IMG/VR virus record: IMGVR_UViG_3300038425_000062
Span: 1 to 25,721 of that record
Length of the DNA: 25,721 nucleotides
Reading direction: 5' to 3' (one strand)
Source: a virus
The notes below the pieces were generated by a model. It saw only the letters and a list, made by a program, of their open reading frames with translations. It searched no databases and was not told the DNA's origin. The translations under genes and the position numbers were made by a program. Numbering within the stretch: the first letter of the stretch is position 1; each line of letters begins with the position of its first letter. Of the stretch, positions 2,823 to 22,580 are shown piece by piece.

Positions 2823-3310
2823 AAATCTGCACCAACTGCGGAGATCCGAAGAGCCGCTACTACGCGAAGGGCCTCTGCGCGAAGTGCTATGCGATCAGCT
2901 TTCGCAGGAAACATGGAGCGCGTCCCGCTTTCAACTGGAAGGGGCATTCTTGTGACAACTGCGGCGCTACCCCCGTCAAGGCGCGCGGCCTTTGCCTTCG
3001 GTGCTATAGAAGCCAGCTCAACAAGACTTCTCCCCGGGCCATGCGTCAGAGGTATTTGGCAAATCAGCGGAAGAACTTTGGAGGAAGGCGGGACGAACTG
3101 CTTTCCATTCTCGGCGGGAAATGTCAGAAGTGCGGCCTGACGGACGAGCAATCGGTTGAGAGATTTGGGCGCAAGCTGGACATTCACCACAAGGACGGCC
3201 ACGGGAGAACAAGCGACTCGCCGAACCATTCTGAGGACAACCTCATGATTCTCTGTCCGCCTTGCCATCGCTTGCTGCATATAACGCTGAAGAAAGGGGC
3301 GGCAGCATGA
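2819..3310 (+). CDS. HNH endonuclease with two N-terminal zinc fingers
   Basis: The 163-residue product has two similar CxxC...CxxC modules (C4/C7/C20/C23 and C45/C48/C59/C62), followed by a basic region. The C-terminal HNH nuclease domain has zinc cysteines C102, C105, C146 and C149, the catalytic pair H123-H124 (LDIHHKDGHG), N141 in the NHSEDNLMILC segment, and H150. This is the layout of a free-standing phage homing-type endonuclease. It lies exactly between the nuclease and ATPase subunits of the Mre11/Rad50 pair, with 4-nt overlaps on both sides, so it is co-translated with them. It may be a mobile intruder, or it may have been recruited to the complex. Confidence 0.85.
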   Translation: MKICTNCGDPKSRYYAKGLCAKCYAISFRRKHGARPAFNWKGHSCDNCGATPVKARGLCLRCYRSQLNKTSPRAMRQRYLANQRKNFGGRRDELLSILGGKCQKCGLTDEQSVERFGRKLDIHHKDGHGRTSDSPNHSEDNLMILCPPCHRLLHITLKKGAAA

Positions 3311-5964
3311 GCATATTTAATGTAAAGGTCACTCGCATCCTTTTTCCACATCCGCGCCGTTGCAAGTTTTCCCTCCACTGGCCGGAGCCCGCGGGCCCGG
3401 ATGTCGAAGGCGTGCAGGCGTGGATCTGCTATAAGGCGACGAAGGAGGAAGCCGCGAAGATCGACACCGCGGCGGTCCTCGAAGCCTACATCGAGCAAGG
3501 CGCGCTCCCCGGTTCTCGCGTGACGGTCGAGCTGATCCCGACGGAGACCGTGCGCGCGGCAGAGATCACGGAGAAGCACCGCCTACGGGAGAAGGTCGAA
3601 GTCTACGCCGAAGCATCAGGCGATTATGGGCCGGGCGCAATTGGCAAGAAAGTTCCCGAATCCATCCTCCTCAAAGCCGACCAACTGGAAAGGGAGGCCG
3701 AGGAGCGGGGCGCGGCAGCTGGCATGCACTTCCGCCTGAGACGTCTGCGCCTTCGCGGCGCCATCGGCGTCTGGAAGGGCCAGCGGAAGGACGAAGTTGA
3801 CTACAACCTGGACGCCTTCTCCCCGGGTCTGATCGCCATGGTCGGAGTCAACGGCTCGTCGAAGTCAACGGTCATCGAGAATATGCACCCGTATCCCTGC
3901 ATGCTCACGCGGGACGGGAAGCTGCAGGATCACTTCCGCCTGCGCGACTCCGCGCGGGAACTCTGGTTCGTGGACGAGCGCACCGGGGCCGAGTACCGCG
4001 CGCTCATGGAGATCGACGGCGCGAATGCCAGTGGCCTGGCGAAGTACCACCTGTTCAAAAACGGCGAGCCCATCAACAGCGGGGCGAAGTTATCGAAGGA
4101 CGAATATGAGCAGGCCATCGAGGGCCTGATCGGCACGCTGCCGCTGTTCCTCCGATCGGCGTTCGTATCTCAGCGGCCCACCAAATCAAATCCTGATCTG
4201 TCGGAGGCAACCAAAGGTGAGAGGAAAGCGATCTTTCGGGAGTTGGCCGGGCTCGACTACATGCAGGCGTATGCGGAGAGCGCAAAGGCGAAGGCAAGCG
4301 CAATCGAGGCGGAGATCGCCGTCGAGCGCGGCAGGATCAGCGTCATTGAGAGTCAGCTCACGGCGCTACCGGGAATTACGAGAGATCGAGATTCTGCGGC
4401 GGCTGATCTGGGCGTGCGGAATCTGGCGCTCGAGAAACTGGCTGCCACCGGATCCACGCTCAAGGCTGAGGCTGAGCAGCTCTCACAAAAGGTAGCCGAG
4501 CAGCGGAGCCTTGCGGAGAGGATCGCGGGCCTTGAGGACCAGATAGCGCAGAAGCAGCAGGTCATCAAGCTCGCCCAGGCCTCAATCACCGACTACCAGG
4601 AAGCGCTCACGTGGAAACCCGAAGCGGAGAAGGTCATCGCCGAGTGGGACGCGCTGAAGGAGCAGGAGAATGCGGAGAACCGACGACTCAGTGCCATCAA
4701 CGCCGACAATGCTCGGCTCCAGGGTGAGTACACAACTCGCCTCACGGCTCATAACGCAGATGTCCGAAAGGTCGAAGGTCAGCAGTCGGGCCTCCGAACG
4801 GAGAAGGCGAGTCTGGAGGGCACTCGAAACGTTCTTCAGGCGCAGATCGGGAACCTGAAAGAGTGGCTGGCGCCTCCGAAGCCGTGCCCGCAATGCGGCT
4901 ATATCGATCCAGAAATCATCAAAAAGCGCGAAGAACTGGAGAAAACGCTCGACGAAAAGGTGAAAAAGAGCGAGGAAGCCCGCATAAGGATTCAGAAAAC
5001 GGACCTTGAACTCGCCGCAATCGTCCCGCCGCCTGCCCTCCCGCCGTTTGTGCTCGCTCCCGCTGACCAGGCGCCCCTGCGGCGCATCCTGACCGCACTC
5101 GCCGTCCTCAAGATCGACCAGGCGCGGAAAAACGTGGCCACGGCCCAGGAAGCCGCTACCCGGATCGAAGAGGCGAAGAAGCAGCTGGAGAAGGCCTCTG
5201 GGGACCAGGCCGAGCTGGAACTCTCGATTCAGGGCCTGCAATCTCAGATCGACCCCGCAATCCAGCCCGTCTACGACGAGGCGGCCCGGAAGCTGGAAGC
5301 CGCGCGCGTGGAGTACGGAGAGGCGCAGAAGGCCATCGCGGGCCTTGAGGCGCAGATCCAGGGACTCGGCAAGCGGATCGCCGAGCTCCAGGCCTCCGAG
5401 AAGGACTTGGGGGAACGCAAGGTCACGCTGGAGGAGCGCCAGGCCTGCGCCGCGGAGTGGCGCTATCTGGAGACGGCCTGCGGGCCTGACGGGATCCAGG
5501 CGCTGGAGTTGGACGCCATGGGCCCGGGTATCTCCGACTGCGCGAATAAGTTGCTCTCGGCAGCATACGGCTCGCGCTTCAGCATTGAGTTGCGCACCAC
5601 GCGCATTGCTGGCAAAGGCTCGAAGACGAAGCAGGTCGAGGACTTCGCGATCATCGTACTGGACAACGAACTCCTGACCGAGCAGCCCATCGAGACGCTG
5701 AGCGGCGGGGAGTCGGTGTGGATAAAGCGCGCGCTCTACGATGCCTTTGCGCTGATCCGCGATCGCACCACGGGGATCCGGTTCCTCACGGTGTTCGCTG
5801 ACGAGGCTGACGGAGCGCTGGATCCCGAGAGTCGCCAGCATTATTTCGCAATGCTCGAGGCCGCGCACCAGGAGAGCGGGCGCCGGCATACGTTAGTCGT
5901 GACGCATTCGCCCGAGATTCAGGAAATGATTCCGCAGAAGATCGAGATGAGGAGCGCGGAGTGA
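3307..5964 (+). CDS. Rad50/SbcC-like SMC ATPase with extra N-terminal domain
   Basis: I choose ATG 3307, overlapping the HNH stop; this gives 885 residues. Residues 1 to about 138 are a separate domain I do not recognise. The Rad50 head then starts at about MHFRLRRLRLRG. Walker A is GVNGSSKST (180-188), with Ser185 replacing the usual Gly before Lys186. Long coiled-coil arms flank a zinc hook, CPQC (C527, C530). The signature is LSGGES (798-803) and Walker B is FADEADGALDPES with D832-E833. It should act with the 2001-2822 nuclease on DNA ends in replication and recombination. The shorter length relative to bacterial SbcC fits phage gp46-type proteins. Confidence 0.92.
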   Translation: MSIFNVKVTRILFPHPRRCKFSLHWPEPAGPDVEGVQAWICYKATKEEAAKIDTAAVLEAYIEQGALPGSRVTVELIPTETVRAAEITEKHRLREKVEVYAEASGDYGPGAIGKKVPESILLKADQLEREAEERGAAAGMHFRLRRLRLRGAIGVWKGQRKDEVDYNLDAFSPGLIAMVGVNGSSKSTVIENMHPYPCMLTRDGKLQDHFRLRDSARELWFVDERTGAEYRALMEIDGANASGLAKYHLFKNGEPINSGAKLSKDEYEQAIEGLIGTLPLFLRSAFVSQRPTKSNPDLSEATKGERKAIFRELAGLDYMQAYAESAKAKASAIEAEIAVERGRISVIESQLTALPGITRDRDSAAADLGVRNLALEKLAATGSTLKAEAEQLSQKVAEQRSLAERIAGLEDQIAQKQQVIKLAQASITDYQEALTWKPEAEKVIAEWDALKEQENAENRRLSAINADNARLQGEYTTRLTAHNADVRKVEGQQSGLRTEKASLEGTRNVLQAQIGNLKEWLAPPKPCPQCGYIDPEIIKKREELEKTLDEKVKKSEEARIRIQKTDLELAAIVPPPALPPFVLAPADQAPLRRILTALAVLKIDQARKNVATAQEAATRIEEAKKQLEKASGDQAELELSIQGLQSQIDPAIQPVYDEAARKLEAARVEYGEAQKAIAGLEAQIQGLGKRIAELQASEKDLGERKVTLEERQACAAEWRYLETACGPDGIQALELDAMGPGISDCANKLLSAAYGSRFSIELRTTRIAGKGSKTKQVEDFAIIVLDNELLTEQPIETLSGGESVWIKRALYDAFALIRDRTTGIRFLTVFADEADGALDPESRQHYFAMLEAAHQESGRRHTLVVTHSPEIQEMIPQKIEMRSAE

Positions 5965-10314: not shown

Positions 10315-11027
10315 TCGACAACTCGAAGGCGCGCGGGCTCCAGGAGATCTACAAGGCGCGTGGCAATGGCGCACTCAATGCTCTTGCTGTTGAATGCGAG
10401 GGGATCGCCTTTATCATCGTCAAAGCGCAATGCCGAAAATACGGATTGCGCTTTGAGCGGGAGAAAGTCCTAGAGTTCGCGCACGATGCCGCGGCGCAAT
10501 TCATCTCGCAATATCTGAAGCATGCGGATTACAACGTGCGCTCGTTCTCAGCCCGCATCCGCCGAGACGTGCTCAACGTGATGTTCGGTCGCAAGCGAAA
10601 CAAACAGAACGCTTTCGAAGATGGGTTGGTACAGATTCTTTCGCCTTATTCGAGGACCCAGATTATAGACGGTCAAATGCTACAGCAACATATGAACTCC
10701 TCAACTGCCCTCGACGAGCTCATTGCCGACCATCCGCAAGGCATGAAGATCGCGGCGGATCTTGCCCGTTCGAAGTCCTATTCGCAGGCGATCAGGAGGA
10801 TAGCGATCTATGTCGGACGCGAATGGATCTATGAGCATGCCGAGAAAATGCATCACGTATGGAAAACGTTCAGGTGGAAGCCGGAGACGAAGGGTGGCAT
10901 TCGTCGAACAGGAGTTAGACGACTATGCCCTGGCCTTCTGTGCAGCGAACCAGCAGAGCTACAGCAGCCTGATCAACGATCTAATAAGATACCTCAGAGA
11001 CGAAATCGGAAAGGAGGAGGAGCATGA
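10311..11027 (+). CDS. Sigma-factor-like putative late transcription regulator (up to 238 aa)
   Basis: ATG 10311 overlaps the previous stop. Residues about 25-100 (CEGIAFIIVKAQCRKYGL, FAHDAAAQFISQYLKH, VRSFSARIRRDVLNVM, then GRKRNKQ) fit the helices of sigma region 2, where a D-(x)n-Q-(x)n helix is followed by FxxxLxxIxRNxxxDxxR. Residues about 155-185 (KSYSQAIRRIAIYVGREWIY) could be a helix-turn-helix like region 4. This is pattern reading; no search was possible. The segment after about residue 195 (GIRRTGVRRLCPGLL) looks unlike protein and overlaps another frame, so the true C-terminus may end early or involve a frameshift. Its location just before the virion genes suits a late-gene activator. 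Confidence 0.5.
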   Translation: MIDNSKARGLQEIYKARGNGALNALAVECEGIAFIIVKAQCRKYGLRFEREKVLEFAHDAAAQFISQYLKHADYNVRSFSARIRRDVLNVMFGRKRNKQNAFEDGLVQILSPYSRTQIIDGQMLQQHMNSSTALDELIADHPQGMKIAADLARSKSYSQAIRRIAIYVGREWIYEHAEKMHHVWKTFRWKPETKGGIRRTGVRRLCPGLLCSEPAELQQPDQRSNKIPQRRNRKGGGA

Positions 11028-11031
11028 CTGA
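10810..11031 (+). CDS. Ribbon-helix-helix-like ORF overlapping the sigma-like gene (73 aa)
   Basis: This +1 frame relative to the 10311 gene starts at ATG 10810, with AGGAGG 10 nt upstream (10794-10799). The C-terminal part, RVAFVEQELDDYALAFC followed by SYSSLINDLIRYLRDEIG, has the strand-helix-helix spacing of ribbon-helix-helix DNA-binding proteins, and is far more protein-like than the overlapping frame. The first 25 residues are basic and low quality. It is either a separate overlapping small regulator or the displaced C-terminus of the 10311 product after a frameshift. Confidence 0.5.
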   Translation: MSDANGSMSMPRKCITYGKRSGGSRRRRVAFVEQELDDYALAFCAANQQSYSSLINDLIRYLRDEIGKEEEHD

Positions 11032-11251
11032 AGACAACAAAGAGATCAATCATCTGAACATCGACGCCATTATTCAGGACATCGCATCGAGGCGGACCCG
11101 CATTCTGGAGGACTTCGCCCGCGCGTATCTCGCGGAGTTCTCCGGACTCATGCCAAGCCAAATTGAGTTTTGCTTTCAGAATGATTACGAGAACGGCATA
11201 GAAAAGGTGTGGATAAGAAAGCTGCCGGACGATAAGGGCTCTGGCATATGA
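11024..11251 (+). CDS. Hypothetical protein (75 aa)
   Basis: The ATG at 11024 has a near-perfect AAGGAGGAGG binding site. Both the 10311 and 10810 frames end within 8 nt of it. The product is acidic and largely helical at the start (IDAIIQDIASRRTRILEDFARAYLAEF) and then strand-rich (IEFCFQNDYENGIEKVWIRKL). No family is recognised. It overlaps the next ATG (ATGA). Confidence 0.65.
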   Translation: MTEDNKEINHLNIDAIIQDIASRRTRILEDFARAYLAEFSGLMPSQIEFCFQNDYENGIEKVWIRKLPDDKGSGI

Positions 11252-11631
11252 ACGGAGCCGCACTGAACTTCACGCGCCGCGATTTCAGGCATGCCCGCCA
11301 GCGTATCGGCGCCGAGAAGTTGCAGGCGCGAATACTGCGGGAGATGGTGCGCGAGATGCCTCCGACGCAGGCGATGGTGTTTATGTCCTATTTCCACCAA
11401 TTCCCGGAGTTTGCGCATGGCAATGACAATTACTTCAAGCCGGCCTGGGCGCGCACGTGTGGCCAGCTTCAGATCAGGCGCCGGGCATTCTGGAAGATGA
11501 CGCGCGCACTGATAGATCTGGGCTTCCTGGAACGCCGCTGGTGTGGGCTCCTTCGCGGGTGGTGGGAATATCGGATCGTGTTCGAGAAGCTGGAAAAGTA
11601 CAGAGTAGATCCGCGCAAAGGCACTACATAA
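11248..11631 (+). CDS. Winged-helix DNA-binding protein, candidate small terminase or regulator (127 aa)
   Basis: The ATG at 11248 overlaps the previous stop. The C-terminal half (CGQLQIRRRAFWKMTRALIDLGFLERR, then WEYRIVFE) reads as a winged helix: recognition helix, short loop, then a beta wing. The N-terminal half is basic and helical. Its place immediately before TerL makes it a candidate packaging-site recognition protein, but the TerL N-terminus itself carries a small-terminase-like motif, so a transcriptional role is equally possible. Its last codons (GGC ACT ACA TAA) are part of the GCACTACAT motif before TerL. Confidence 0.65.
   Translation: MNGAALNFTRRDFRHARQRIGAEKLQARILREMVREMPPTQAMVFMSYFHQFPEFAHGNDNYFKPAWARTCGQLQIRRRAFWKMTRALIDLGFLERRWCGLLRGWWEYRIVFEKLEKYRVDPRKGTT
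11619..11629 (+). promoter_or_regulatory. GCACTACAT motif copy 1 (before TerL)
   Basis: AAGGCACTACAT-type sequence (core 11621-11629) ends 5 nt before the TerL GTG at 11635, reading GCACTACATAAAGCGTG. Copy 2 before the 13702 gene is identical over 15 of these 17 or more bases and has the same 5-nt spacing. No Shine-Dalgarno lies between the motif and start. It may be a phage late promoter or a start-associated RNA element. Confidence 0.6.
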
Positions 11632-11634
11632 AGC

Positions 11635-13353
11635 GTGAACGATCAGGAACGCCACGAGCAACGCTTAGCGAATATTGAAAAACATAAATGGCAAAAGGGA
11701 GGTCCCTCTCCCAACCCAGGCGGACGAACTGCAGGCTTCCTGCATTTCTCTGCAAAGCTCATGGCTCAAATGCTTGACGCCCGAGTTGATGAGAATGGGA
11801 AACCGGTCCACAAGGATGATCCGAATTATCACTTAGCAACGCCTTTTCCTGTGGCTGCCTTGAGTCTCTATATGGAGCGAGTTCTCTCAAAAAGTGCTAG
11901 GCAAAGCGAAACTCTATTTGATTTCGTTGATCGCTTATTGCCACATCTTGATAAAGTTGATGGCATTCTCATGCATCAGCGCGAGCACGACATAAAATAC
12001 CTGACTTACCTAGTCTATAAATATTGCTTTGATGAACAACAGCAGGTCCTACTTACGAAGAAACCGCTGATCGTGATGATTTGCGGACGTCGCGCTGGAA
12101 AGACCATTGCCATAGCCGCACTTCTCATTCTGGTGGCTATCAGCCATGAGAGGGGCGATGTCATTTATCTTGGACGGACTGCGAAGTCAGCATATGATAT
12201 TGTCTGGAAATCCCTGATCGATATTCTGGATTATCTTGGAATCCCATTCATGCCGCACATAGCTGATCAGCGCATCGAATTCAACACAGGCGTCAACATC
12301 TACGTCAAAGGCACGAACACAAAAGAGGACATCGAAAACATTAGAGGCAAGGGCTTTCGGCTAGCAGTAAAGGACGAATGCCAGGGCGACAGCCATTCAA
12401 AGCTGAAGATGCTCGTCGAGGAAGTTCTCGGTCCCACCCTGAAGGACTACGAGGATTCAAGGATTGCGCTGCTCGGTACCCCGCCGCGGATCCAGGGGAG
12501 CTACTTCGAGGAGAAGTACCTCGAAATAAATCCCTTGATCGCGCGATGCAACTGGAATCTCTCAGTCAACCCGCATATTCCAAATCACGAAAAGATCCTG
12601 GCAAAGATTCTCGCGGATGAATTCGGAGGCAATGAGAACGATACCGTCTACCAGCGGGAGTATTTGGGCCGGGTGGGAGCTTATGATACTGAGGCCCTCA
12701 TTCTCCGCTTCACGGATGCCAATCACTACACGGACGCACAACTCGCCGAGTGGATCAACTCGCAGCCGCCTTCTGATATCTTCCTGTCGGGCGGGATAGA
12801 CTACGGCTTTGACGATTTCGACTCCTGCACGATCACGCTGGCATCGGAGCGCAAGCCCGGCCGGTACAACATCTACGAGTACAAGGGCAACAGGACCGGC
12901 ACGAGCGATTTCGTGAACCGGATGAAGCTCGGGATTACGCAGACGACCTCCAATCCGATCCTGGCGAAGATCAACAAGAACTTCACCTGGTTCTGCGATA
13001 CCGAGGGGCTGGGGAAGAAAATCACGTACGATCTTGCCTCGCAATTCGGAATAACCGTAGCGCCAGCATATCAAGGTCAGCAAGATCTCTTGCTGGAGAT
13101 GTTACAGGATGAGGTAAAGAATGGCTGGTATAAGACGCGAGCTCCTCAGACCATAGCTGGCAAGCTGATCATCTCGGAGATAGAGCAGGAAGCGAAGTAT
13201 ATGGTGTTCGCGCGAAACGAAGAGTTGCCCGGCCAACCGCTTACTCGCCGGATCGATGATGATGTCTATCATCCCGAGATCTTGAAAAGCGTGTTATACT
13301 CGCTCAGATATATTTGGCTAAGGAGTAAGGCGAAGCTGGGAAATACGAAGTGA
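11635..13353 (+). CDS. terL: Terminase large subunit (ATPase and nuclease)
   Basis: I use GTG 11635, giving 572 residues. The motor domain has Walker A CGRRAGKT (150-157), Walker B LAVKDE with D247-E248, and a LLGTPP coupling motif. The nuclease domain begins with GGIDYGFDD (catalytic D389) and continues to DTEGLGKK and DDDVYHPEILKSVLYSL. TerL packages phage DNA into the procapsid through the portal and cuts it. The N-terminus is unusual: KWQKGGPSPNPGGR (18-31) resembles the KPGQSGNPxGR motif of small-terminase-type (DUF5681) proteins, followed by about 90 residues ahead of the ATPase. The start lacks an SD and is preceded by motif copy 1. Confidence 0.95.
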   Translation: MNDQERHEQRLANIEKHKWQKGGPSPNPGGRTAGFLHFSAKLMAQMLDARVDENGKPVHKDDPNYHLATPFPVAALSLYMERVLSKSARQSETLFDFVDRLLPHLDKVDGILMHQREHDIKYLTYLVYKYCFDEQQQVLLTKKPLIVMICGRRAGKTIAIAALLILVAISHERGDVIYLGRTAKSAYDIVWKSLIDILDYLGIPFMPHIADQRIEFNTGVNIYVKGTNTKEDIENIRGKGFRLAVKDECQGDSHSKLKMLVEEVLGPTLKDYEDSRIALLGTPPRIQGSYFEEKYLEINPLIARCNWNLSVNPHIPNHEKILAKILADEFGGNENDTVYQREYLGRVGAYDTEALILRFTDANHYTDAQLAEWINSQPPSDIFLSGGIDYGFDDFDSCTITLASERKPGRYNIYEYKGNRTGTSDFVNRMKLGITQTTSNPILAKINKNFTWFCDTEGLGKKITYDLASQFGITVAPAYQGQQDLLLEMLQDEVKNGWYKTRAPQTIAGKLIISEIEQEAKYMVFARNEELPGQPLTRRIDDDVYHPEILKSVLYSLRYIWLRSKAKLGNTK

Positions 13354-13496
13354 TGACAATTAAGCCCAAGAAATGGTGGTGGCGCTTTTCTCCGCATAAG
13401 CGTAAGATCGTAAAAGCAGCCGAGTTCTATCTCAATCAAGAAGAGATTCAAGCTGCTATCAGGCTCGAAATCGTAAACAAATTGATGAACAGATGA
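13353..13496 (+). CDS. Very small basic protein (47 aa)
   Basis: The ATG at 13353 overlaps the TerL stop (TGATG). The peptide is MTIKPKKWWWRFSPHKRK followed by an amphipathic helix (AAEFYLNQEEIQAAIRLEI). It has a strongly basic, Trp-rich N-terminus. It may bind nucleic acid or membrane; no family is known to me. Coupling to TerL and to the next small gene supports translation. Confidence 0.5.
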   Translation: MTIKPKKWWWRFSPHKRKIVKAAEFYLNQEEIQAAIRLEIVNKLMNR

Positions 13497-13663
13497 ATCG
13501 CATGGACTTCAACGAGATCAGAGCCAAGGCACGCGCCACTCAGAATATTTACAAAACGATCCGCATTCTCTATCCTTGGGCAGAATTTCGCGAAGGATAC
13601 ATATTGCGAAAGTCAGTGATATTCATTTTACGGCAATGCTGGATAGAAGTAGGCTACTGCTAA
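13493..13663 (+). CDS. Very small protein (56 aa)
   Basis: The ATG at 13493 overlaps the preceding stop (ATGA). The product begins MNRMDFNEIRAKARATQ and is basic overall, with aromatic and hydrophobic residues toward the C-terminus (YKTIRILYPWAEF, SVIFILRQCWIEVGYC). No family is recognised. There is no independent binding site, so expression would rely on coupling to the 13353 gene. Confidence 0.45.
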   Translation: MNRMDFNEIRAKARATQNIYKTIRILYPWAEFREGYILRKSVIFILRQCWIEVGYC

Positions 13664-13683
13664 TCTTCGGGAAAGTCCCATAG

Positions 13684-13696
13684 AATCGCACTACAT
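13684..13696 (+). promoter_or_regulatory. GCACTACAT motif copy 2 (before the 13702 gene)
   Basis: AATCGCACTACAT ends 5 nt before the GTG at 13702 (CGCACTACATAATGCGTG), in a 38-nt gap after the stop at 13663. No Shine-Dalgarno is present, so the motif is the only evident start signal. A small GGGA-AAG-TCCC inverted repeat lies just upstream (about 13669-13679). Confidence 0.6.
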
Positions 13697-13701
13697 AATG
13701 C

Positions 13702-13959
13702 GTGGCAACCTTCATCGACGCATGGAAGCTCATTCATGATGAACTAAAGGCCCGGCGCGAAACAGAGAAGAAGCGCAAGGCTTTCGGGAAGCTCACCGGG
13801 AAAACCCTTGACATGCAGATGCTCGAATCTATCGCGCAAGAGGCCGCGAAGCTGCGCCCGGGATTCTATACGCGCGTGACGATTGAAGGAGCCGTGATCG
13901 AGATGGGCGTCAAAGAGAATGCGAAGCCGATGCCCCGGCAAGAAAATGAGACATTCTGA
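13702..13959 (+). CDS. Hypothetical protein (85 aa)
   Basis: I place the start at GTG 13702, directly after motif copy 2, giving MATFIDAWKLIHDELKARRE. The first half is a charged helix (KARRETEKKRKAFGKL). The second half has strand-like stretches (GFYTRVTIEGAVIEMGV). No family is recognised. It ends on the portal start (TGATG), so it is a late, probably head-related, accessory gene. Confidence 0.65.
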   Translation: MATFIDAWKLIHDELKARRETEKKRKAFGKLTGKTLDMQMLESIAQEAAKLRPGFYTRVTIEGAVIEMGVKENAKPMPRQENETF

Positions 13960-15788
13960 TGCCTGACGATAAACAATTCACAGAAAAGGAAATACTCGCC
14001 GACGCCATCCAGCTCGAAGCATGGCTCATGCGCCGGGATATGAAGTACCTGCGCAACCTGAACCGCTATAACAATAACGGACAGCGCGTCGAGCAGATCT
14101 ACGATCTTTATAACAATCCTGTTAGCTATTATTTCCAGGCCAGCGATGACAACCGGATCCCATGGCCCATCGAGAACGTGATCAAGAGCTGCATCGATAC
14201 CAAAGTCTCGAAGATGAGCCAAGTCAAGGTGCGGCCGTTCTTCAATCCGGTCAACGGACTCTGGAAGACCCGCAAATGCTGCCGTGTTGCCCAACAGTGG
14301 GCGGATGAATGGTACCAGCGCGAAGGCATCTATAAGTCCGGGAATATGGCCTATCGCGATGGCCAGATATTCGACGTTGGCCATGTGTGGGTCAACGAAG
14401 TTACGCGGCAACCCGTGCGTATCATGCCGTGGGAATATTATGTGGATCCCGCAGAGGAAACATTCAAGAAGCATAGCCGGTGCATGGTGAAGTTCCGGCA
14501 ATATCCTTTCTTCGCCTTGAAAGACATCCTGAAATCCGGCGGGCGCGCAGAAGGCGCTTATAAGAAAAATCCGTTCTATCGCGCACAGGATTACCGCATC
14601 TATTACCATCTGGCCGAAGGGAAGCGTTATGACATCGTGGATGGCGAAGTCCAGAAAATCAGCACGATCAAGTTCAAGAAGCCTCCGGTTGCCACGATCC
14701 ATTATTGCCCGCCGGTCAAAGGCATTTGGACTCCTTCCCTTGTCGATGACCTGATCACTCTCCAGAAAGAGCTCGACCTCGTAAACGAAAAGATACACGA
14801 CGCCGAGGAGAATACACCGGCCAACCTGATCCTCGTTCCTACTATGAGCAGCGGCGGCATTAAGGCATCAACCATCGACGGTGGGAAAGCCGCGATGATG
14901 TACGAATACGAACCTGCTCCCGGGTCTACCGCTCCTGCAACGTGGGTGACGCCGGCATCGGTGAATCCACAGCTCCTCACTAGGCGGGAAAAGATCATCG
15001 AGAGCATGTACAACATCTCCGGTGTCTCGCAGCTCTCCGCGCAATCGAAAAAGCCCAGCGGGATCAATAGCGGCGTCATGCTGGATACGCTCGAAGATGT
15101 GGAAAGCGAACGCTTCAACTTTGAGCTGCAGAACTTCGAAGACTTCTGCATGACGATCAGCGAGATCGCCATTGACGTCTTCGATGAGGATGCCGATATC
15201 CTGCCAAAACGCAAGCAGCGGCCGACCGTCACCTGGAAAGAAATCAAGGCAGAGCGGGACTTCTTCTCGATTCAATTCTCCCCCGCCTCTGCACTTTCCA
15301 ATACCCCGAAAGTGAAAATGGAGCAGGTCGAGAAGCTCCAGAAGATGGGTCTGATTGGACCCGAATGGGCCGCCGAGATGCTGCAATTTCCGGACCTTGA
15401 ACGTTCTTATGGTATCGCCACGGCCAACCGGGATGATATCGAGATGATCACCGAGCGCGCTGCAGAATATAGGGAGTTTGATTTCTATGACGTGGTGAAT
15501 GTAGGCGATCTCTACAAGAACGTTATGAACGAAATCATGCGCCTAGACGCGGATGAGGAGAATGAATCGATCCTCGATAACCTCATTGCGTTCTTAAAAG
15601 TCATCAAGAGCAAGATGGACGCGCTGAGGCTCGCGGCTACTCCAGCTCCACCGCCCCCGGGGCCTCCCGCAGCAGCTCCTCCAGTTGCATTGGGCCAACC
15701 TCCAAATCCTCCGAGCCCGCAAGTACCGAATGCTCTTGCCGGAGGAAATGGAAATACAGCGGCAGCTATGCAGCAGGCTCCCGCATGA
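13959..15788 (+). CDS. Portal protein (609 aa)
   Basis: Coupled ATG 13959. Assignment rests on length, position between terminase and scaffold/coat, and content: a helical N-terminal region, a central part with RIMPWEYYVDPAEETFKK (typical of podovirus portals), the segment PSLVDDLITLQKELDLVNEK followed by SMYNISGVSQLSAQ and SGINSGVMLDTLEDVE (like the clip/stem-proximal region of P22-type portals), and a charged helical C-terminal region. It forms the dodecameric ring through which DNA enters and leaves. The last about 45 residues are a Pro/Ala/Gly/Gln-rich tail, probably disordered. Confidence 0.88.
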   Translation: MPDDKQFTEKEILADAIQLEAWLMRRDMKYLRNLNRYNNNGQRVEQIYDLYNNPVSYYFQASDDNRIPWPIENVIKSCIDTKVSKMSQVKVRPFFNPVNGLWKTRKCCRVAQQWADEWYQREGIYKSGNMAYRDGQIFDVGHVWVNEVTRQPVRIMPWEYYVDPAEETFKKHSRCMVKFRQYPFFALKDILKSGGRAEGAYKKNPFYRAQDYRIYYHLAEGKRYDIVDGEVQKISTIKFKKPPVATIHYCPPVKGIWTPSLVDDLITLQKELDLVNEKIHDAEENTPANLILVPTMSSGGIKASTIDGGKAAMMYEYEPAPGSTAPATWVTPASVNPQLLTRREKIIESMYNISGVSQLSAQSKKPSGINSGVMLDTLEDVESERFNFELQNFEDFCMTISEIAIDVFDEDADILPKRKQRPTVTWKEIKAERDFFSIQFSPASALSNTPKVKMEQVEKLQKMGLIGPEWAAEMLQFPDLERSYGIATANRDDIEMITERAAEYREFDFYDVVNVGDLYKNVMNEIMRLDADEENESILDNLIAFLKVIKSKMDALRLAATPAPPPPGPPAAAPPVALGQPPNPPSPQVPNALAGGNGNTAAAMQQAPA

Positions 15789-15800
15789 GAAATTTCTCTC

Positions 15801-15815
15801 AAAATCGCACTACAT
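15801..15815 (+). promoter_or_regulatory. GCACTACAT motif copy 3 (before scaffold)
   Basis: AAAATCGCACTACAT lies in the 43-nt gap after the portal stop and 16 nt before the scaffold ATG. Here an ordinary AGGAG (15819-15823) follows the motif. Upstream is an AT-rich stretch (AAATTTCTCTCAAAAT). Confidence 0.6.
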
Positions 15816-15831
15816 ATCAGGAGTAGAGCAA

Positions 15832-16440
15832 ATGAGTGGTCAGCAACTTCCCAGCGCAGAAGAGCAGATACCCTCGGTAGAGGAGATTTTCCAGTCCCTC
15901 GAAGGCCATCCGCCCGAAGAGCAGATGCCGGCCCTGGCCGCAATCATGCAGGCCATGCTCGGCCAGATGAGCGAGATGGAGAAACGCCAGGAGGAGTATT
16001 ACCAGCGCGTGGATGATCTCTACAAGGAGATCTATGACCCGCTGAAAAAGGGGTACCAAGAGAAAGTCCGCGGTCAGGGACTCGAATCCCTGAAGGGGAA
16101 ATACGGATCTCTATTCGATCCCATTCTTGAACCGCTGAAGGGCTTCGGGATCGAGGATCCCTATTCGACCCTCTATGACATGCTGGAGCAAATGAAAAAG
16201 GATGGCACCTATAATGAGGCCGACGAAGGGAAATACATCGGCGATCAGCATGCGGATGCTATGAAGCACATCACTGCTGTCCGCGGGACGCCGCCGGCTG
16301 AAGAAGTGGCCGAGACGCCGGCTCCCGAGGCCGAAGTCGAAGCCGAAATCAAGAAAGAGGAAAAGCCGGCAGAGAAGAAGCCGGAAGAAAAACCGAAATC
16401 CCTCGCCCAGAAAAAGAGATCCATGAGGGACGGATACTAA
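15832..16440 (+). CDS. Scaffolding protein candidate (202 aa)
   Basis: I place the start at ATG 15832 (CAGGAG upstream, after motif copy 3); the same frame is open further upstream but overlaps the portal gene. The product is acidic and helical (PSVEEIFQSLEG, MQAMLGQMSEMEKRQEEYYQ, VDDLYKEIY). It ends in a Glu/Ala/Pro/Lys low-complexity stretch and a basic C-terminal tail (KSLAQKKRSMRDGY). A basic helix at the C-terminus that binds coat protein is the classical feature of P22-type scaffolds. Position between portal and coat supports it. No sequence identity is claimed. Confidence 0.75.
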   Translation: MSGQQLPSAEEQIPSVEEIFQSLEGHPPEEQMPALAAIMQAMLGQMSEMEKRQEEYYQRVDDLYKEIYDPLKKGYQEKVRGQGLESLKGKYGSLFDPILEPLKGFGIEDPYSTLYDMLEQMKKDGTYNEADEGKYIGDQHADAMKHITAVRGTPPAEEVAETPAPEAEVEAEIKKEEKPAEKKPEEKPKSLAQKKRSMRDGY

Positions 16441-16619
16441 TGCACCCCATAATTCAGGCCATCCAGGATGCGCTCAAGCCGAAGGTTATAGAAGTTCCCC
16501 CGCCGGCCCCATGGCCTCAGCCAGCAGAGGAACCGCGTGCCGAGGAGCTGACTGATCTTCAGTCTGAGATCGAAGAGCATTCCGACGAAGAAGAGAAATC
16601 CGAAAACATCGACTTTTGA
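16440..16619 (+). CDS. Small acidic Pro-rich protein (59 aa)
   Basis: The ATG at 16440 overlaps the scaffold stop (TAATG). The sequence starts MHPIIQAIQDALKPKVIEV, then PPPAPWPQP, then a very acidic end (EIEEHSDEEEKSENIDF). It sits between scaffold and coat and shares the scaffold's composition. It may be an accessory scaffold or capsid protein. Its stop lies directly on motif copy 4. Confidence 0.6.
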   Translation: MHPIIQAIQDALKPKVIEVPPPAPWPQPAEEPRAEELTDLQSEIEEHSDEEEKSENIDF

Positions 16620-16633
16620 AAATCGCACTACAT
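16619..16633 (+). promoter_or_regulatory. GCACTACAT motif copy 4 (before coat protein)
   Basis: AAAATCGCACTACAT, identical over 15 nt to copy 3, overlaps the end of the small acidic gene by one base and lies 22 nt before the coat ATG. An ordinary GAGGAG binding site (16640-16645) intervenes. Confidence 0.6.
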
Positions 16634-16655
16634 AGGGCAGAGGAGAAAACAGACC

Positions 16656-18062
16656 ATGCCCGTATCGAGTGCACAACTTCTTGCAACCTTCAAGACGTAT
16701 TACACGCCGGACCAGATGGAGAATCTCCTCTGGCGCAACAGCCCCGCGGTGAAACGGATCAAGAAGGTCCGGGTGAGCGGTGCGAACTACGTCTTCCCGA
16801 TGGTCACCGGCCGCGGTGGTGCGGTCTCTGGAAGCGGCGCCGTGGCCGTTGCCAAATCCGCAACTACCTCGCGCACGAACGCGATGACCGTCGATCATGG
16901 AAACCTCTTCAGCGCCTTCCAGCTCACTGATAAAGAGGCCCGGGCATCTGTGGACGACAAAGGCGCCTTCGAGCCCGTGGGGGTCACCAAGCTCTTCACG
17001 ACCTCGGATGCGCTTCGAAAGACGATTGCTGCCGCCTTCTACGGATCCGGGTTTGGAGAGGTGGGCCGTGTCCAGGGCGCGGTGATCGCCGGAGCAAACC
17101 AAGTCATCGTCGACAGTGCCACCGTGGCGAAGATCGACGTGGACACGGATTTCGTCGTCACCACGGGCCCGGCCATCGGAAATGATCTTCCCTCTGATGC
17201 CCTGATCGGAGGCGGAACAGGAACGGTCTATACCGTGCAGCAGGTGGATGGTGATGGAAGTGGAAACTACACCGTCACTTTCACGCCAGTCGCGCCTGCC
17301 GCGGGATTCGTCGATCAATCCTGGATCTGCCTGAACGGCTTCCGCGATGCGACGACCCTTGCGGCCATCGGCCCGCAAGGCCTCGGTGGAGCGCTTCCCT
17401 CCTTCGCCAACAGAACAGGCGCCAACTGGGCTACCTACATCGCTATCGCTTTCCAGGGGCTCGTGCGGAACGTCTTCACGAACCGGCTTGCCGGTGGATT
17501 CGTGCTGCAGAACACGGCAGGCGGGGAGACCAAGACGCAGGCTGTCACTCGCGCCGTGCAACTTGCACGATTCCAAGGAGGCGAGAGTGACCTGATCATC
17601 CTGAATGACAAGAACTTCAACGAAATCCTTATCGAGCTCAACAGCTCGACGCTTCTCTGGAAGGATCTTCAGGGCGGAGCTCCGAAGAATGAAGTGGCTC
17701 TCGGCATCGATAGTATGTCTTACATGTTCAGCACGAGCTGGGTGAAGACGGCCATCGATGATCCCTACTGCCCATACAACACTTTCTATGTCCTGGAAGA
17801 GCGGACGATCAAATGGATCGGGCTCACGGACATGGAGCGGGCCACGCAGGACAGCATCTCCGACAATCAGCCTGGAGCGCCCCCGGTCACGAAAGACGGA
17901 GAAGTGCCGACTGATCGTTATGGGCTGAACATCGATGACATCCTCACACTGAACCCGTCCGCAGTCGGCCAGGACGGCGCGGGAATCCAGGGACTCCTTT
18001 CGATCTTCGGGGCCTTCGTCGTACAGAACCCGGCGCACTGCGTGGTGGGAAGGTTTGTTTAG
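16656..18062 (+). CDS. Major capsid (coat) protein (468 aa)
   Basis: ATG 16656 with GAGGAG 10 nt upstream. The product is long and soluble, with an N-terminal arm (LLATFKTYYTPDQMENLLW) and extended strand-rich regions. A Gly/Asp-rich part around residues 145-225 (GAVIAGANQVIVD, GGGTGTVYTVQQVDGDGSG) may be an inserted surface domain, and the C-terminus is typical (DILTLNPSAVGQDGAG). Location after scaffold, high GC and strongly biased codons, its own motif and a strong terminator all fit the most highly expressed virion gene. An HK97-like fold is expected for tailed phages but is not proven here. Confidence 0.85.
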   Translation: MPVSSAQLLATFKTYYTPDQMENLLWRNSPAVKRIKKVRVSGANYVFPMVTGRGGAVSGSGAVAVAKSATTSRTNAMTVDHGNLFSAFQLTDKEARASVDDKGAFEPVGVTKLFTTSDALRKTIAAAFYGSGFGEVGRVQGAVIAGANQVIVDSATVAKIDVDTDFVVTTGPAIGNDLPSDALIGGGTGTVYTVQQVDGDGSGNYTVTFTPVAPAAGFVDQSWICLNGFRDATTLAAIGPQGLGGALPSFANRTGANWATYIAIAFQGLVRNVFTNRLAGGFVLQNTAGGETKTQAVTRAVQLARFQGGESDLIILNDKNFNEILIELNSSTLLWKDLQGGAPKNEVALGIDSMSYMFSTSWVKTAIDDPYCPYNTFYVLEERTIKWIGLTDMERATQDSISDNQPGAPPVTKDGEVPTDRYGLNIDDILTLNPSAVGQDGAGIQGLLSIFGAFVVQNPAHCVVGRFV

Positions 18063-18084
18063 CCAGCAATAGGAGATTTCAATC

Positions 18085-18115
18085 AAGCCCCGGCCAACTT
18101 CAGCCGGGGCTTTTT
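18085..18115 (+). terminator. Strong intrinsic terminator after coat gene
   Basis: AAGCCCCGGC (18085-18094) pairs with GCCGGGGCTT (18103-18112) over 10 bp with an 8-nt loop, followed by TTTTT (18111-18115). It ends + strand transcription just after the coat stop at 18062. Its left strand also encodes the last codons of the opposing minus-strand gene. Confidence 0.9.
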
Positions 18116-18273
18116 ATCAGATAAAGCACAATTCCCAGACCAATCGTTGGAAGTAAAATGATCAATAGCGATGTCATATCGAGAGGACCATTGCTCCAGA
18201 AAATGAAAAATGATCCTAGAATCCATACTACCATGAGAATCTTGATCACTCTCCGTAATCTCACTATGAACAT
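18100..18273 (-). CDS. Minus-strand small two-helix membrane protein (57 aa), moron-like
   Basis: On the minus strand, ATG at 18273 follows AGGAGG (plus-strand CCTCCT, 18282-18287) with 8-nt spacing. The peptide begins MFIVRLRRVIK and has two hydrophobic segments (about 11-27 and 33-53) joined by SNGPLD, ending LIKSPG. It is the only convincing minus-strand gene, sits between coat and connector genes and is AT-richer than they are. That is the profile of a moron, an independently expressed insert that often alters the host envelope or blocks superinfection. Holin-like function is an alternative. Its stop lies in the loop of the coat terminator. Confidence 0.65.
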   Translation of the reverse strand: MFIVRLRRVIKILMVVWILGSFFIFWSNGPLDMTSLLIILLPTIGLGIVLYLIKSPG

Positions 18274-18293
18274 TTCATTTGCCTCCTGATTAG

Positions 18294-18343
18294 AGTCTAC
18301 AAGTAAGTGTGCACATTTCAATCCCCTTCTGAAGCGTGCACAC
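18294..18343 (-). promoter_or_regulatory. Possible promoter and palindromic operator for the minus-strand gene
   Basis: On the minus strand TTGAAA (plus 18316-18321) and TAGACT (plus 18294-18299) are 16 bp apart, a plausible though imperfect sigma70-type pair. GTGTGCAC (18307-18314), within the spacer, and its inverted copy GTGCACAC (18336-18343), upstream of the -35, form an 8-bp inverted repeat, each half itself holding the palindrome GTGCAC. The layout suits a repressor site in a divergent gap. The inferred start would leave almost no leader, which weakens the promoter call. Confidence 0.35.
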
Positions 18344-18350
18344 AATAGAT

Positions 18351-18363
18351 TTCCGCACTACAT
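18351..18363 (+). promoter_or_regulatory. GCACTACAT motif copy 5 (before connector)
   Basis: TTTCCGCACTACAT-type sequence (core CGCACTACAT 18354-18363) lies 6 nt before ATG 18370, or 3 nt before TTG 18367. No Shine-Dalgarno is present in this gap, as with copies 1 and 2. It begins the tail-gene operon that runs to the window end without further copies. Confidence 0.6.
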
Positions 18364-18369
18364 CTCTTG

Positions 18370-19773
18370 ATGAACGTATCAGCAATGGTCACATGGGCCC
18401 GGTCCCTGGCGAATCTTTCTACTTCGAAGGCAATCAGCCAGGACGATGAGGACAAATCTTTCAATGCGAGTTGGAAGGATCTCTACGCTCGCATGCTGGA
18501 ATCGAACGACGATTACTTCACGAAGACAGTCCAGATCGCGCTCACCACGCCAATGCTCGTAGGGACCTTCGAATGGCTCGTTCCGATGCCTTCGGACTTC
18601 TACCAGCTCCGCACCGCGGAGTACCAGGATGGGACGACGAACGGCCAGTGGATCCCCCTGGAGAAGTTCCCGCTTTCCTCCCGGACAGATCAGGGAATTG
18701 CGGATCCCGGCTACCGGATGGACAACTCGAACCTCTGGATCAAGGGCCAGGGCATCAGCACCATCCGGATCAAGTACTATCCACCGCCGGCGCAACTCAC
18801 GCATCCCCAGCCCGATCTCCAATATGGAACGAGCTATGCCCCGAATGCCTTTCCCCTCATCACTTCCCCAGCGTATGCAGCGTGGAAGAACACGGGTCTC
18901 TATATCTACAGCGCGCAGAACATCGTTGAAGAATCGATTGACAGCAATTCCGTTGTAACTCCCGTGACGCTCTATGCCGTGGGAGCGAACGTCTCCAACC
19001 TGGTCTACTACAAGGGCTATCTCTATTGGCTTCAGGCGGGGAGCATCAAGCGGGCGCCCACCGATCTTGTCACGCCATTCCTAGTCGGAGTTGTGACTAT
19101 GCCAATCGGTACAGGTACGGTGTCCAGCTTCAGCGTGTTCATGAATAAGCTGTATTACAATGACGGCGGAACTATGAAGAGTGCCAACCTCGACGGTACC
19201 GGGGTAGCGGTCCTTTTGGCATCCGTGGGGTCATGGCTGTCTCTTGCCGGCGGCGTCGTTTTTTACATCGATGCTACGGCGAATCTGAAGGCAATAGGAG
19301 GGGGAACGCTTGTAACGGGGACCGCCGCGGCTTGCACGAGCGACGGCACAAATCTCTATATGTTGGACACCTCAAATCAGCTTCACCTCCTCACGTTAAG
19401 CGGAGCGGCGCTCAGATCGGACACGATCACAAGGACGGACGTATCCGCAATCGGACCGTGGGCGGGAAGCACGGTTCCATGCATCACGGGGGAAGCGCAG
19501 ACTTTCATCGCCGATGATTCTACGGTCGACAGCAATATCACCTATCCCGCAAATGTAGTCCTAGAGATCATGAGCTACCAGGGCGCAATTGATTTCAGGA
19601 CGAAGATAGGCGGGGAGTTTGACTTCGGCCCGCTCCTCGGGAGACTCGGCCATCCGGCGGGAGCGAATGGGAAAGCATCTGGACTCTGGGCCCGGTTCGA
19701 GAGCTCGGTCAAGCGTGATAGCTACAAAGCTGAGCGCGTGAGTAACAGCCGGCGCGTGGCAGGAAATTGGTAA
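18370..19773 (+). CDS. Head-tail connector with inserted beta-propeller-like domain (467 aa)
   Basis: I prefer ATG 18370; an in-frame TTG at 18367 is the alternative. Residues about 1-155 (SWKDLYARMLESNDDYF, FEWLVPMPSDFYQLR, NLWIKGQGISTIRIKYYPPP) read like a podovirus gp4-type head completion/adaptor protein that binds the portal. From about 160 to 385 the character changes to repeated short units: WKNTGLYIYSAQN, GYLYWLQAGSIKRA, NKLYYNDGGTMKSANLDG, GVVFYIDATANLKAI, TNLYMLDTSNQLHLL. These resemble blades of a beta-propeller. The adaptor-like C-terminus then resumes (VVLEIMSYQGAIDF, then RDSYKAERVSNSRR). P22 gp4 is about 166 residues, so the size excess equals the insert. Follows coat as in P22. 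Confidence 0.7.
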   Translation: MNVSAMVTWARSLANLSTSKAISQDDEDKSFNASWKDLYARMLESNDDYFTKTVQIALTTPMLVGTFEWLVPMPSDFYQLRTAEYQDGTTNGQWIPLEKFPLSSRTDQGIADPGYRMDNSNLWIKGQGISTIRIKYYPPPAQLTHPQPDLQYGTSYAPNAFPLITSPAYAAWKNTGLYIYSAQNIVEESIDSNSVVTPVTLYAVGANVSNLVYYKGYLYWLQAGSIKRAPTDLVTPFLVGVVTMPIGTGTVSSFSVFMNKLYYNDGGTMKSANLDGTGVAVLLASVGSWLSLAGGVVFYIDATANLKAIGGGTLVTGTAAACTSDGTNLYMLDTSNQLHLLTLSGAALRSDTITRTDVSAIGPWAGSTVPCITGEAQTFIADDSTVDSNITYPANVVLEIMSYQGAIDFRTKIGGEFDFGPLLGRLGHPAGANGKASGLWARFESSVKRDSYKAERVSNSRRVAGNW

Positions 19774-22580
19774 TGGCACGCAGCGCGAAACTCAATCTTC
19801 AGCATAGCATCTGCACGGATACTCCAGTCGGAGCCGATCTATTTGCTATTGGCGATGACAGCGCGAAGCATCTCCAAAATACCGGCATAGAGCGCAACAG
19901 CGGGTTGACTCCGATCTATGAAAAGGAAACGACTTTCCCGACTGCCGGCGTTTCCACGATTATTGCTAAAGATGGAACGGTCGTGCAGGTGGACGCATCG
20001 AATAATGTCCGGCTGAATGATCGAGTGATAGGAAATGTGGGACCGCTGGCGATCAAGAACCGTGGCGTTCTCTCTGGCTATCTCGATGCGGCATGGACGG
20101 CAGATGAAACACTTATAGCGATCAACCGAATCGGCACTTCGATGTATGTCTATGAGATTGATCCGGCCACCGGTACGGTCCTTCATAGTCGCTCAAATGC
20201 TTTTGCCGGGTTCCCTTCGGGGCCGATAGGTAATATCTGTCTCGTGAAATATGTAGACATGCACTATGCGGATAATCAGGAGTTTGTAGTTCAACTTGGA
20301 GGTCCTACCGGTACGGCTTCGGCAAATGCTTACATATTAAAAGAATCCGGGACAAGCACTACTTTAATAACTGGCTCAAATGCCAAACCATGTAGATATT
20401 TTGTATGGAGATTCTCTACGGGAAAGTACATTTCTGGTAAACAAGGACTCAACATTTCCAGTGTTCCCGCATGGTTTATAGGCGATTTGACAGGAGCAGG
20501 AGATACTAATCTAGTAAATGTTGACGCAGCAAAACCTGTAGTGAATATCACAATAGATAGATTCCCGGGGACGGCATTTTCAAGAGCAATCCTTACTCTG
20601 CCACCCGGTAAAAATACTGCAAATCTATTTAGTGGATATGGAGAAGTGGGATACACAAGCGCGGGAGTGTATTCCGCATCTCCTGTTTTCTATGGGATTG
20701 CTTTGGGAGCTGCCACCGTGACGGTGCAAAATCCAATCTTCGGAATGGGATATTCAGAATGTGATTTCACAAGGTCAGATTTTGCGGGTCAGATTTTCTA
20801 TTATTATGCGGCTCCCTTTGCTCACAATGTAGCAGCATATTATCTGGCTTCTTCATGTGCTACCAATACTCCGATAAATGGATATGGGAAGCTAACCGAT
20901 ATTTTCAATACGACATCAGGGGCAAACGTTGTTAATCTTGTTTCCTGGAGAGTGATATACATAAATGGGCAGCAATCTTTTCTTTCAGCGGCTCCTATTG
21001 GAACGACTTGGGATTGTATTGGAGTTCCGATAACTAATGTCGGGGAGTTTGACGAAATATTCACACCCCATATTGACGATAATGGGAGTACATATTCCAG
21101 AATCCTTTATCGTTATCATGGGCAATTGTTTTATGTCAACATTACTTCGACCGCAACGCATACCCTTCAAAGGGTAGGTGACAATCTCTATACTGTGAAT
21201 TGTATTTCTGCGATAAATGCGGTTGATGTAAGGGGTAGAAAACTTGCAACGGGAACTAATGATTACAATGGGAGATTGATACAATTCTCAGCTGCGGCAA
21301 TTGTAAATCCTACTTATAAAGTAGTTGGACTAATGCAAGAGGCTTTTTCTAATTCTACAGATTTCGGAGATAAACTCTCTACTGCTCTATCAACTGCTGC
21401 TCTTGCTGCTATTTCTCCGTATGACTATTTGAGCCTTTATCTTTTCTGCCCTGGGATAGAATCTCCAAGTTTTATAGATAGGTCAAGTGATTTCTCTGTT
21501 GATGTTTATTTGAATGATGTATATTTCGGTTCCTTTATCGCTTATGCCTCTCCAATAGTAAAAGCTGATCTCGGAGGAACTCTCTATGTTTCCGATACCC
21601 GTCTTCCCTTTGCCATGGGTTATTCCTTCCAAGAACGCACCATGCAGACGGAAGTTGAAACGATCTTCACCGGCGTAGGGGTGACGGGGAGTGCGGATAT
21701 CGACTTCGATTATCTTGGCTATGAGCTGGGAAATGATACCCCGGCGCTCTATCAATCATTTGTCCTTTTTGGTCAGACATATCTTTTCGACGGAAAACAG
21801 ATATGGTTCGCCTCCTTCACGGGAGCTTTGTTTGCAGGGCATGGAAGTTCCCCTATCTGCCCGGCGACAGGAATGCAGTTGATAGCCTCTTCTCCAACAG
21901 AAGTATTCTTTCTTTCCTTGCAAGACAACTCCATCTATTCGTTTGATGGAGGCAGATCGCTTCAGAAGGTTAACCGGATGAATGATCTCCGCAACTCTGT
22001 GGGTGCTCTGGAGACGATCATCAATGGCGTGTTCAGCGTTCGAGACAATACGCTCCTTTTGCAGACGGCAAGTACGTTCGTATGGATACGTGACAAGATC
22101 GTATCCCAGAACGCTAAGAAGGCCAATCAAACGGCAATAGCATTGTACGACACGCAGCTGGGAATATTCATTGCCAACAATACGCTGAGTTGGCAATATA
22201 CCTTTTTCGCACTCGCCGGATCTACTGTTGTGCCTTTCACCTGGCAGAGTGGATATTTCGGGGTCACTGACAACAAGCTCGGCATCTTCTCCGCATTTGA
22301 TCTCACCTTCTATTGCGCTGCCAAGTCGGCAGCCTCGATCATCGTTACTTTCGCTGGCTTCGATGCAGATGAGGAATGGACGGAGACTGTGCCCTACAAC
22401 ATCAAGCCTGGAGATTGGACGCCGCTGGGATTCTATCGTGCGAAAGTCACGCCAGCTCACACGCTGGGCCTTGCGCTGTCGATTGGTATTCAGACATCAT
22501 CCTATATCGTTCTCAACGAGGTCATCGCGGAGTTCACCCCGAGCGTGAGCACGGCTGTATCCGCGGGTAGGAGCAAATAA
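19773..22580 (+). CDS. Large tail protein, probable tail nozzle/hub (935 aa)
   Basis: The ATG at 19773 overlaps the connector stop (TAATG). The product is predominantly beta-strand, with many aromatic and Gly-rich strands (MYVYEIDPATGTVLHS, NNTLSWQYTFFALAG). By order it corresponds to P22 gp10 or T7 gp12, the tail nozzle, which contains beta-propeller-like domains, but at 935 residues it is far larger. Codons in the middle (about 20320-21620) are markedly AT-richer than in both ends; for example 23 of 60 bases are G or C in 20401-20460, against 43 of 60 in the coat gene at 16801-16860. The middle probably encodes an exchanged, variable domain, perhaps host-facing. Confidence 0.7.
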   Translation: MARSAKLNLQHSICTDTPVGADLFAIGDDSAKHLQNTGIERNSGLTPIYEKETTFPTAGVSTIIAKDGTVVQVDASNNVRLNDRVIGNVGPLAIKNRGVLSGYLDAAWTADETLIAINRIGTSMYVYEIDPATGTVLHSRSNAFAGFPSGPIGNICLVKYVDMHYADNQEFVVQLGGPTGTASANAYILKESGTSTTLITGSNAKPCRYFVWRFSTGKYISGKQGLNISSVPAWFIGDLTGAGDTNLVNVDAAKPVVNITIDRFPGTAFSRAILTLPPGKNTANLFSGYGEVGYTSAGVYSASPVFYGIALGAATVTVQNPIFGMGYSECDFTRSDFAGQIFYYYAAPFAHNVAAYYLASSCATNTPINGYGKLTDIFNTTSGANVVNLVSWRVIYINGQQSFLSAAPIGTTWDCIGVPITNVGEFDEIFTPHIDDNGSTYSRILYRYHGQLFYVNITSTATHTLQRVGDNLYTVNCISAINAVDVRGRKLATGTNDYNGRLIQFSAAAIVNPTYKVVGLMQEAFSNSTDFGDKLSTALSTAALAAISPYDYLSLYLFCPGIESPSFIDRSSDFSVDVYLNDVYFGSFIAYASPIVKADLGGTLYVSDTRLPFAMGYSFQERTMQTEVETIFTGVGVTGSADIDFDYLGYELGNDTPALYQSFVLFGQTYLFDGKQIWFASFTGALFAGHGSSPICPATGMQLIASSPTEVFFLSLQDNSIYSFDGGRSLQKVNRMNDLRNSVGALETIINGVFSVRDNTLLLQTASTFVWIRDKIVSQNAKKANQTAIALYDTQLGIFIANNTLSWQYTFFALAGSTVVPFTWQSGYFGVTDNKLGIFSAFDLTFYCAAKSAASIIVTFAGFDADEEWTETVPYNIKPGDWTPLGFYRAKVTPAHTLGLALSIGIQTSSYIVLNEVIAEFTPSVSTAVSAGRSK

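Follow-up and report, generated by a model that had tools for sequence, protein, structure and literature searches.

The virus record IMGVR_UViG_3300038425_000062 comprises 25,721 bases, which are all that is known of this phage genome and which, taken at full length, are called the window here. Its late region carries a series of virion genes on the + strand (Table 1), beginning with TerL and continuing through a gene that starts at 13702, a portal-like gene, a small gene that starts at 15832, the coat gene and a presumed tail operon, and just before the first start codon of each of five groups of these genes there is one copy of a short word, SGCACTACAT (S being C or G). The assignments of the genes differ in firmness. 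The portal-like product shows, besides its weak profile match, a 24% match to the annotated portal of Microbacterium phage Shocker (E 1e-4); the 15832 gene is probably scaffold-like (its product is small and charged, and it precedes the coat gene as scaffold genes do); and the 18367 and 19767 genes are presumed, from position only, to be tail genes.

Table 1. Features of the window that are discussed in the text (nt, nucleotides; aa, amino acids; ORF, open reading frame; SD, Shine–Dalgarno sequence; G001 is a distant relative of the window phage).
Feature	Positions	Strand	Evidence and context
Candidate recogniser, sigma-like protein, 238 aa	10311..11027	+	G001 homologue 38% identical, also upstream of TerL
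11248 protein, alternative regulator	11248..11631	+	G001 homologue 32% identical, in the same place; the homologue is winged-helix-like
Motif copy 1, GGCACTACATA	11620..11630	+	10-mer ends 5 nt before TerL GTG; overlaps stop of 11248 ORF
TerL	11635..13353	+	phrog_2, E 2e-28; Terminase_3, Terminase_6N; unit of copy 1
Motif copy 2, CGCACTACATA	13687..13697	+	10-mer ends 5 nt before GTG of 13702 gene; heads 13702 gene and portal
Portal-like protein	13959..15788	+	Weak portal profile match, E 0.014; unit of copy 2
Motif copy 3	15806..15816	+	16 nt before ATG of scaffold-like gene; SD AGGAG between
Motif copy 4	16624..16634	+	22 nt before coat gene ATG; SD between
Major head protein (coat)	16656..18062	+	Weak match to major head family, E 7e-4; unit of copy 4
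Intrinsic terminator	18085..18113	+	10-bp stem, loop of 8, then TTTTT; -21 kcal/mol, z -4.8; just after coat gene, before copy 5
Small membrane-protein-like ORF	18100..18278	-	Between terminator and copy 5
Motif copy 5, CGCACTACAT	18354..18363	+	3 nt before TTG of first tail gene (6 nt if ATG at 18370)
First gene of presumed tail operon	18367..19773	+	Position; similar gene in G001 at rc (reverse complement) 24562; unit of copy 5

An initial annotation, made from the letters alone, had described five copies on the + strand and none on the minus strand, and this holds throughout the window: SGCACTACAT is present exactly at the five sites of Table 1 and has 0 copies on the minus strand. Since 0.03 copies are expected in shuffled sequence, and five were reached in 0 of 100 shuffles (likewise for the full record), a chance repeat is ruled out. 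The annotation had also considered that copies might be scattered elsewhere, but all other sites in the window that resemble the 12-mer TCGCACTACATA have three mismatches, and a search allowing two or fewer returns the five copies only. When these are aligned with a sixth site, from a relative, the conserved block, CGCACTACATA, consists of 11 contiguous columns, nine positions of which (GCACTACAT) are invariant while the flanking base on each side is nearly so ([C/G] precedes GCACTACAT in the five copies), and AA is preferred two and three bases before the block. The sharing reported earlier among particular copies is real, although the lengths given for it were one base short: copies 2–4 have 14 bases in common rather than 13 (AATCGCACTACATA), and copies 3 and 4 have 16 rather than 15 (AAAATCGCACTACATA). 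Another repeat, CCGATAAATGGA at 622 and 20871, was dismissed as a set of start motifs, as one of its copies lies within a gene.

The motif is asymmetric and non-palindromic, every copy is oriented toward the gene downstream of it, and the copies stand only upstream of non-early (virion) gene groups, on the coding strand, heading the units that had been proposed for them. The distances to the start codons also agree with the 3–22 nt given earlier, and they fall into two kinds: the two long-gap copies (3 and 4) have an ordinary Shine–Dalgarno sequence (SD) between motif and start, and the three short-gap copies have none. It is conceivable that a word so placed exerts its effect at the RNA level, either in translation, as a start-associated signal, or as a binding or processing site for a phage protein: no copy is more than 22 nt from a start codon, an SD is missing at three of the five starts, and the start-associated sequences (SAS) of cluster K mycobacteriophages provide a known case of a start-adjacent repeat (PMC3203893). 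We regard this as improbable, however, because so variable a spacing is unlike that of a ribosome-binding signal, copies 3 and 4 have an SD of their own between motif and start, and the motif neither resembles an SD nor matches any RNA family known to Rfam. As for host-type promoters, no -35 or other upstream word is shared by the six sites beyond what shuffles give, and when a TTGACA-16/18-TATAAT pair was sought near the copies the best scores were 6–8 of 12, the same as in random 70-mers, so the earlier statement that no sigma70 pair is present can stand.

Conservation before the same genes in related phages had been suggested as a check, and relatives of several degrees were compared: contigs L006 and L007 (nearly identical to the window, and therefore uninformative), L008 (a close mosaic), L017 (a fragment) and G001. 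In L008, which is 98–100% identical to the window over most of the late region, all five copies are present. The DNA between coat and tail has there been replaced or cannot be aligned, and similarity picks up at window position 18336, 18 bp ahead of copy 5. A more diverged phage (portal 81% and TerL 51% identical) is represented by the 5.8-kb fragment L017, in which the spacer before the homologue of the 13702 gene is 102 nt long, as against 348 nt in the window; the longest word common to the two spacers is the motif itself (AATCGCACTACATAA, 15 nt), before the 13702 homologue. (Directly after its portal gene, at L017:3938-5807, this fragment has other ORFs in the place taken by scaffold and coat in the window.) A scan of 2.9 million viral contigs for the 14-mer found 93 stretches, and among those that were fetched, matches to window proteins occurred only in the near-identical contigs and L017; the remaining stretches look like chance. 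Alignments of the portal, TerL, coat and sigma-like proteins to viral contigs revealed no further lineages, no further relatives were found in genome contigs, and a phage collection gave only the weak portal match to Shocker.

The terminator just after the coat gene is the cleanest intrinsic terminator of the window, and G001 has a counterpart of the same build (rc 24113-24136, -20 kcal/mol), again the cleanest of its sequence and just before the tail unit. In the window, L008 and G001 alike, a minus-strand ORF fills the gap from there as far as the motif copy that heads the tail genes. With a terminator and a divergent gene in front of them, the tail genes require a + strand promoter in the short gap that holds the motif, a need that a signal acting in RNA would leave unmet. 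The head–tail gap appears to be a slot for accessory genes in all three phages: the minus-strand ORF is membrane-protein-like in the window and in L008 (L008:16550-16870), its G001 counterpart is an unrelated lipoprotein-like one (rc 24140-24530), and L008 has an additional + strand ORF inserted in the gap (16016-16582). We also draw attention to an inverted repeat immediately before copy 5, at 18307-18343 (GTGTGCAC...GTGCACAC), half of which is retained in L008; it may be an operator or form a hairpin.

In G001, the most informative of the relatives (37,167 bases; portal 61%, coat 53% and TerL 50% identical to the window proteins) the late region that was checked contains no GCACTACAT. Instead, a different word, TTGGGGCTATA, stands on the coding strand before three of the five orthologous genes: as TTTGGGGCTATA it lies 5 nt before the GTG of the 13702 homologue and 11 nt before the scaffold gene, and as CTTGGGGCTATA it precedes the first tail gene, 4 nt from its TTG-ATG start. 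The sharing of an 11-mer by three of the five upstream regions (60 nt each) compares with a maximum of 9 in 2000 random draws of five G001 60-mers. The only other copy in G001 at two or fewer mismatches is a weaker one (ATTGGGGCTATG), within a coding gene near its end, and in viral contigs the word was found in G001 itself and otherwise in single unrelated matches only. The motif passes the suggested check: it is kept at all five places in L008 and before the 13702 homologue in L017, and between the window phage and G001 its places persist in part while the word has been exchanged throughout the set. (G001 also has an insertion of about 4 kb between portal and scaffold, at rc 16610-20736.) If cis-acting sites change together while keeping their places, it seems likely that a single trans-acting reader has changed, and co-evolved, with them.

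We therefore propose, with a probability of about 0.68, that CGCACTACATA forms the core of phage-specific late promoters, a set whose reader is a specificity factor encoded by the phage, most likely the 10311 protein. Each virion gene group would have its own promoter copy, read in the + direction only, and all copies would be switched on together by this factor, which is encoded just upstream of the late region and may redirect the host RNA polymerase to a single element that has no -35 partner. If transcription began 6–8 nt downstream of the element, a spacing borrowed from phage phiEco32, the 5' ends would fall at or near the starts of TerL (11635), the 13702 gene (13702) and the tail gene (18370), and the same spacing in G001 would likewise give leaderless messages. 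Leaderless TerL, 13702 and tail mRNAs would in turn explain why an SD is absent at just these three sites. Of the interpretation given in the initial annotation, the part that concerns a promoter is well supported by the geometry of the terminator, by the position-kept switch of word and by the lack of a sigma70 signal; the accompanying role for a sigma-like protein stands at the level of the predicted fold only.

What might be the reader? The 10311 protein is treated here as a likely, though unproven, sigma factor, since sigma factors recur consistently across fold searches. When the predicted fold of its G001 homologue was compared by Foldseek with 350,542 PDB chains, ranks 1–10 were all sigma factors (sigmaS, SigI, AlgU, ShbA and WhiG), the corresponding list for the window protein includes a sigma model (RPSH), sigma32, sigmaE, sigmaS and sigmaE region 2, and in a viral fold library phage sigma factors took the first two ranks and appeared again among the named matches. 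A short ORF in the +1 frame of the sigma-like gene (10897-11031, the start being approximate; a GTG start, GTG GCA T.., is possible) overlaps the end of that gene and matches nothing in Pfam or PHROGs. A corresponding short ORF overlaps the end of the gene in another phage as well (L009:9500-9619), and the pair reads as ribbon-helix-helix-like (VAFVEQELDDYALAFCAANQQSYSSLINDLIRYLRDEI / VAYLDPVLAQYGDAYCKANGISRSKLVNLLLAMLKDDL); alternatively, the short ORF may be the end product of a frameshift. There are two more DNA-binding candidates beside the sigma-like gene, this small product and the winged-helix-like 11248 protein, and the motif might in principle be an operator through which one of them acts on upstream promoters. 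This we think very improbable, because a non-palindromic motif in a single orientation is unlike a typical operator, an activator site would leave no space between itself and the start codon to hold a promoter, and upstream of the copies no host-type promoter can be recognised.

A more serious competitor, though still an unlikely one, is a promoter for a single-subunit RNA polymerase of the T7 type, encoded in a part of the genome that lies outside the sequenced stretch, with transcription starting at or just after the final A of the motif. Like T7-type promoters, the motif has ATA at its end, and in such phages promoter and polymerase co-vary. The G001 word ends in CTATA, followed by G in two of its three copies, and this CTATA is identical to positions -5 to -1 of the T7 promoter. 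Where an SD directly follows the motif (copy 3 and the G001 scaffold copy), transcription that starts within the motif or at its end would keep the SD in the message. On the other hand, the conserved block of 11 nt is shorter than T7-type promoters (about 20 bp, spanning the start), with no conserved base after it, and what is present is a sigma-like gene instead of one for a T7-type polymerase: PF00940 is absent from the window and from four partial records (the 37 kb of G001, the L006 and L008 contigs, and L017), in a search for which the T7 genome worked as positive control. As the genomes searched may be incomplete, the earlier comparison with single-subunit polymerases stays alive.

Several points weigh against a late promoter read by the 10311 protein. 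Sequence-level proof of sigma homology failed, in that profile and sequence searches gave the 10311 protein no family match in Pfam, PHROGs or PDB sequences, and its alignment by hhalign with RpoE, phiEco32 gp36 and 7-11 gp47 was null, though true sigmas also fare poorly in this test. The predicted folds are of low confidence for both the window protein and its G001 homologue (mean predicted local distance difference test scores, pLDDT, of 58 and 60; predicted template modelling scores, pTM, of 0.36-0.42), and no fold match falls below E 0.2, so that none is individually significant. A start 6–8 nt downstream would remove part or all of the SD at copy 3 and at the G001 scaffold copy, and in G001 there is no such word before TerL or coat. 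Sampling is narrow, the distinct relatives numbering three (one very close, one a fragment and one distant), and there is a cautionary precedent in that an earlier computational prediction of promoters for phage 7-11 (PMC4331800) was unconfirmed by mapping (PMC8948821).

With these reservations, we put forward the late-promoter reading, of which a fuller version, to which we would give somewhat less than even odds, is that a divergent sigma family unseen by profiles reads an element abutting the start codons, makes leaderless virion mRNAs, and has been re-specified together with the element between lineages while the places were kept. In either form, this uncultured phage group would gain a late transcription code, comprising a promoter word, the gene units it serves and a named candidate reader, that can be tested without culture. 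A pair of relatives with differing codes is natural material on the joint change of a specificity factor and its promoter set, and the candidate factor, if a true sigma, would extend the sigma family past the reach of present profiles. (Away from the late region, at 1950-5964, the window has an SbcD-like and an SbcC-like gene, separated by an HNH endonuclease ORF at 2819-3310.)

Phage-specific late promoter sets are a known kind of system; the unusual features here are that the elements abut start codons, that relatives differ in the word, and that the candidate sigma is invisible to profiles. Among known repeats, the cluster K SAS, which the initial annotation had invoked, are likewise short and asymmetric, stand by start codons and are essentially in one orientation, but the comparison fits poorly, as the SAS (GGGATAGGAGCCC) have an SD core, a near-constant 3–7 bp to the start and a place in the non-structural arm (PMC3203893), whereas the motif described here is another word, with no SD core and a variable spacing, before virion genes. 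Promoters of the T7 type resemble it as short directional elements that are repeated before late groups and differ between related phages, and they differ in the extent of the conserved block and in having a polymerase gene of a type not found here. The late promoters of phage T4 are TATAAATA, recognised with gp55. They too comprise a -10-only element and involve a divergent phage sigma (a candidate in our case), although their sequence is different and their copies are many.

The closest parallel is with phiEco32, whose sigma factor gp36 reads a single element, tAATGTAtA, without a -35 sequence, at middle and late promoters, with starts 6-8 bp downstream (PMC8948821). As there, a single short element lacking a -35 partner stands before non-early gene groups and a phage sigma is the putative reader, but the sequence of the element is unrelated, the candidate sigma has no sequence similarity to gp36, and the element seen here abuts the starts, which would imply leaderless messages. 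In the related phage 7-11, gp47 is a distant sigma (about 15% identical) that uses a bipartite promoter, GTAAtg-16-aCTA, at similar places in the genome (PMC8948821), and the -35-like part of that promoter has no equivalent among our sites, where there is no upstream element. phiEco32 and 7-11 have dissimilar late promoters in similar positions, with starts 6-9 bp away, and more such pairs were predicted to be found (PMC8948821); in keeping the places of its promoters while switching their sequence, 7-11 stands to phiEco32 as the window phage appears to stand to G001.

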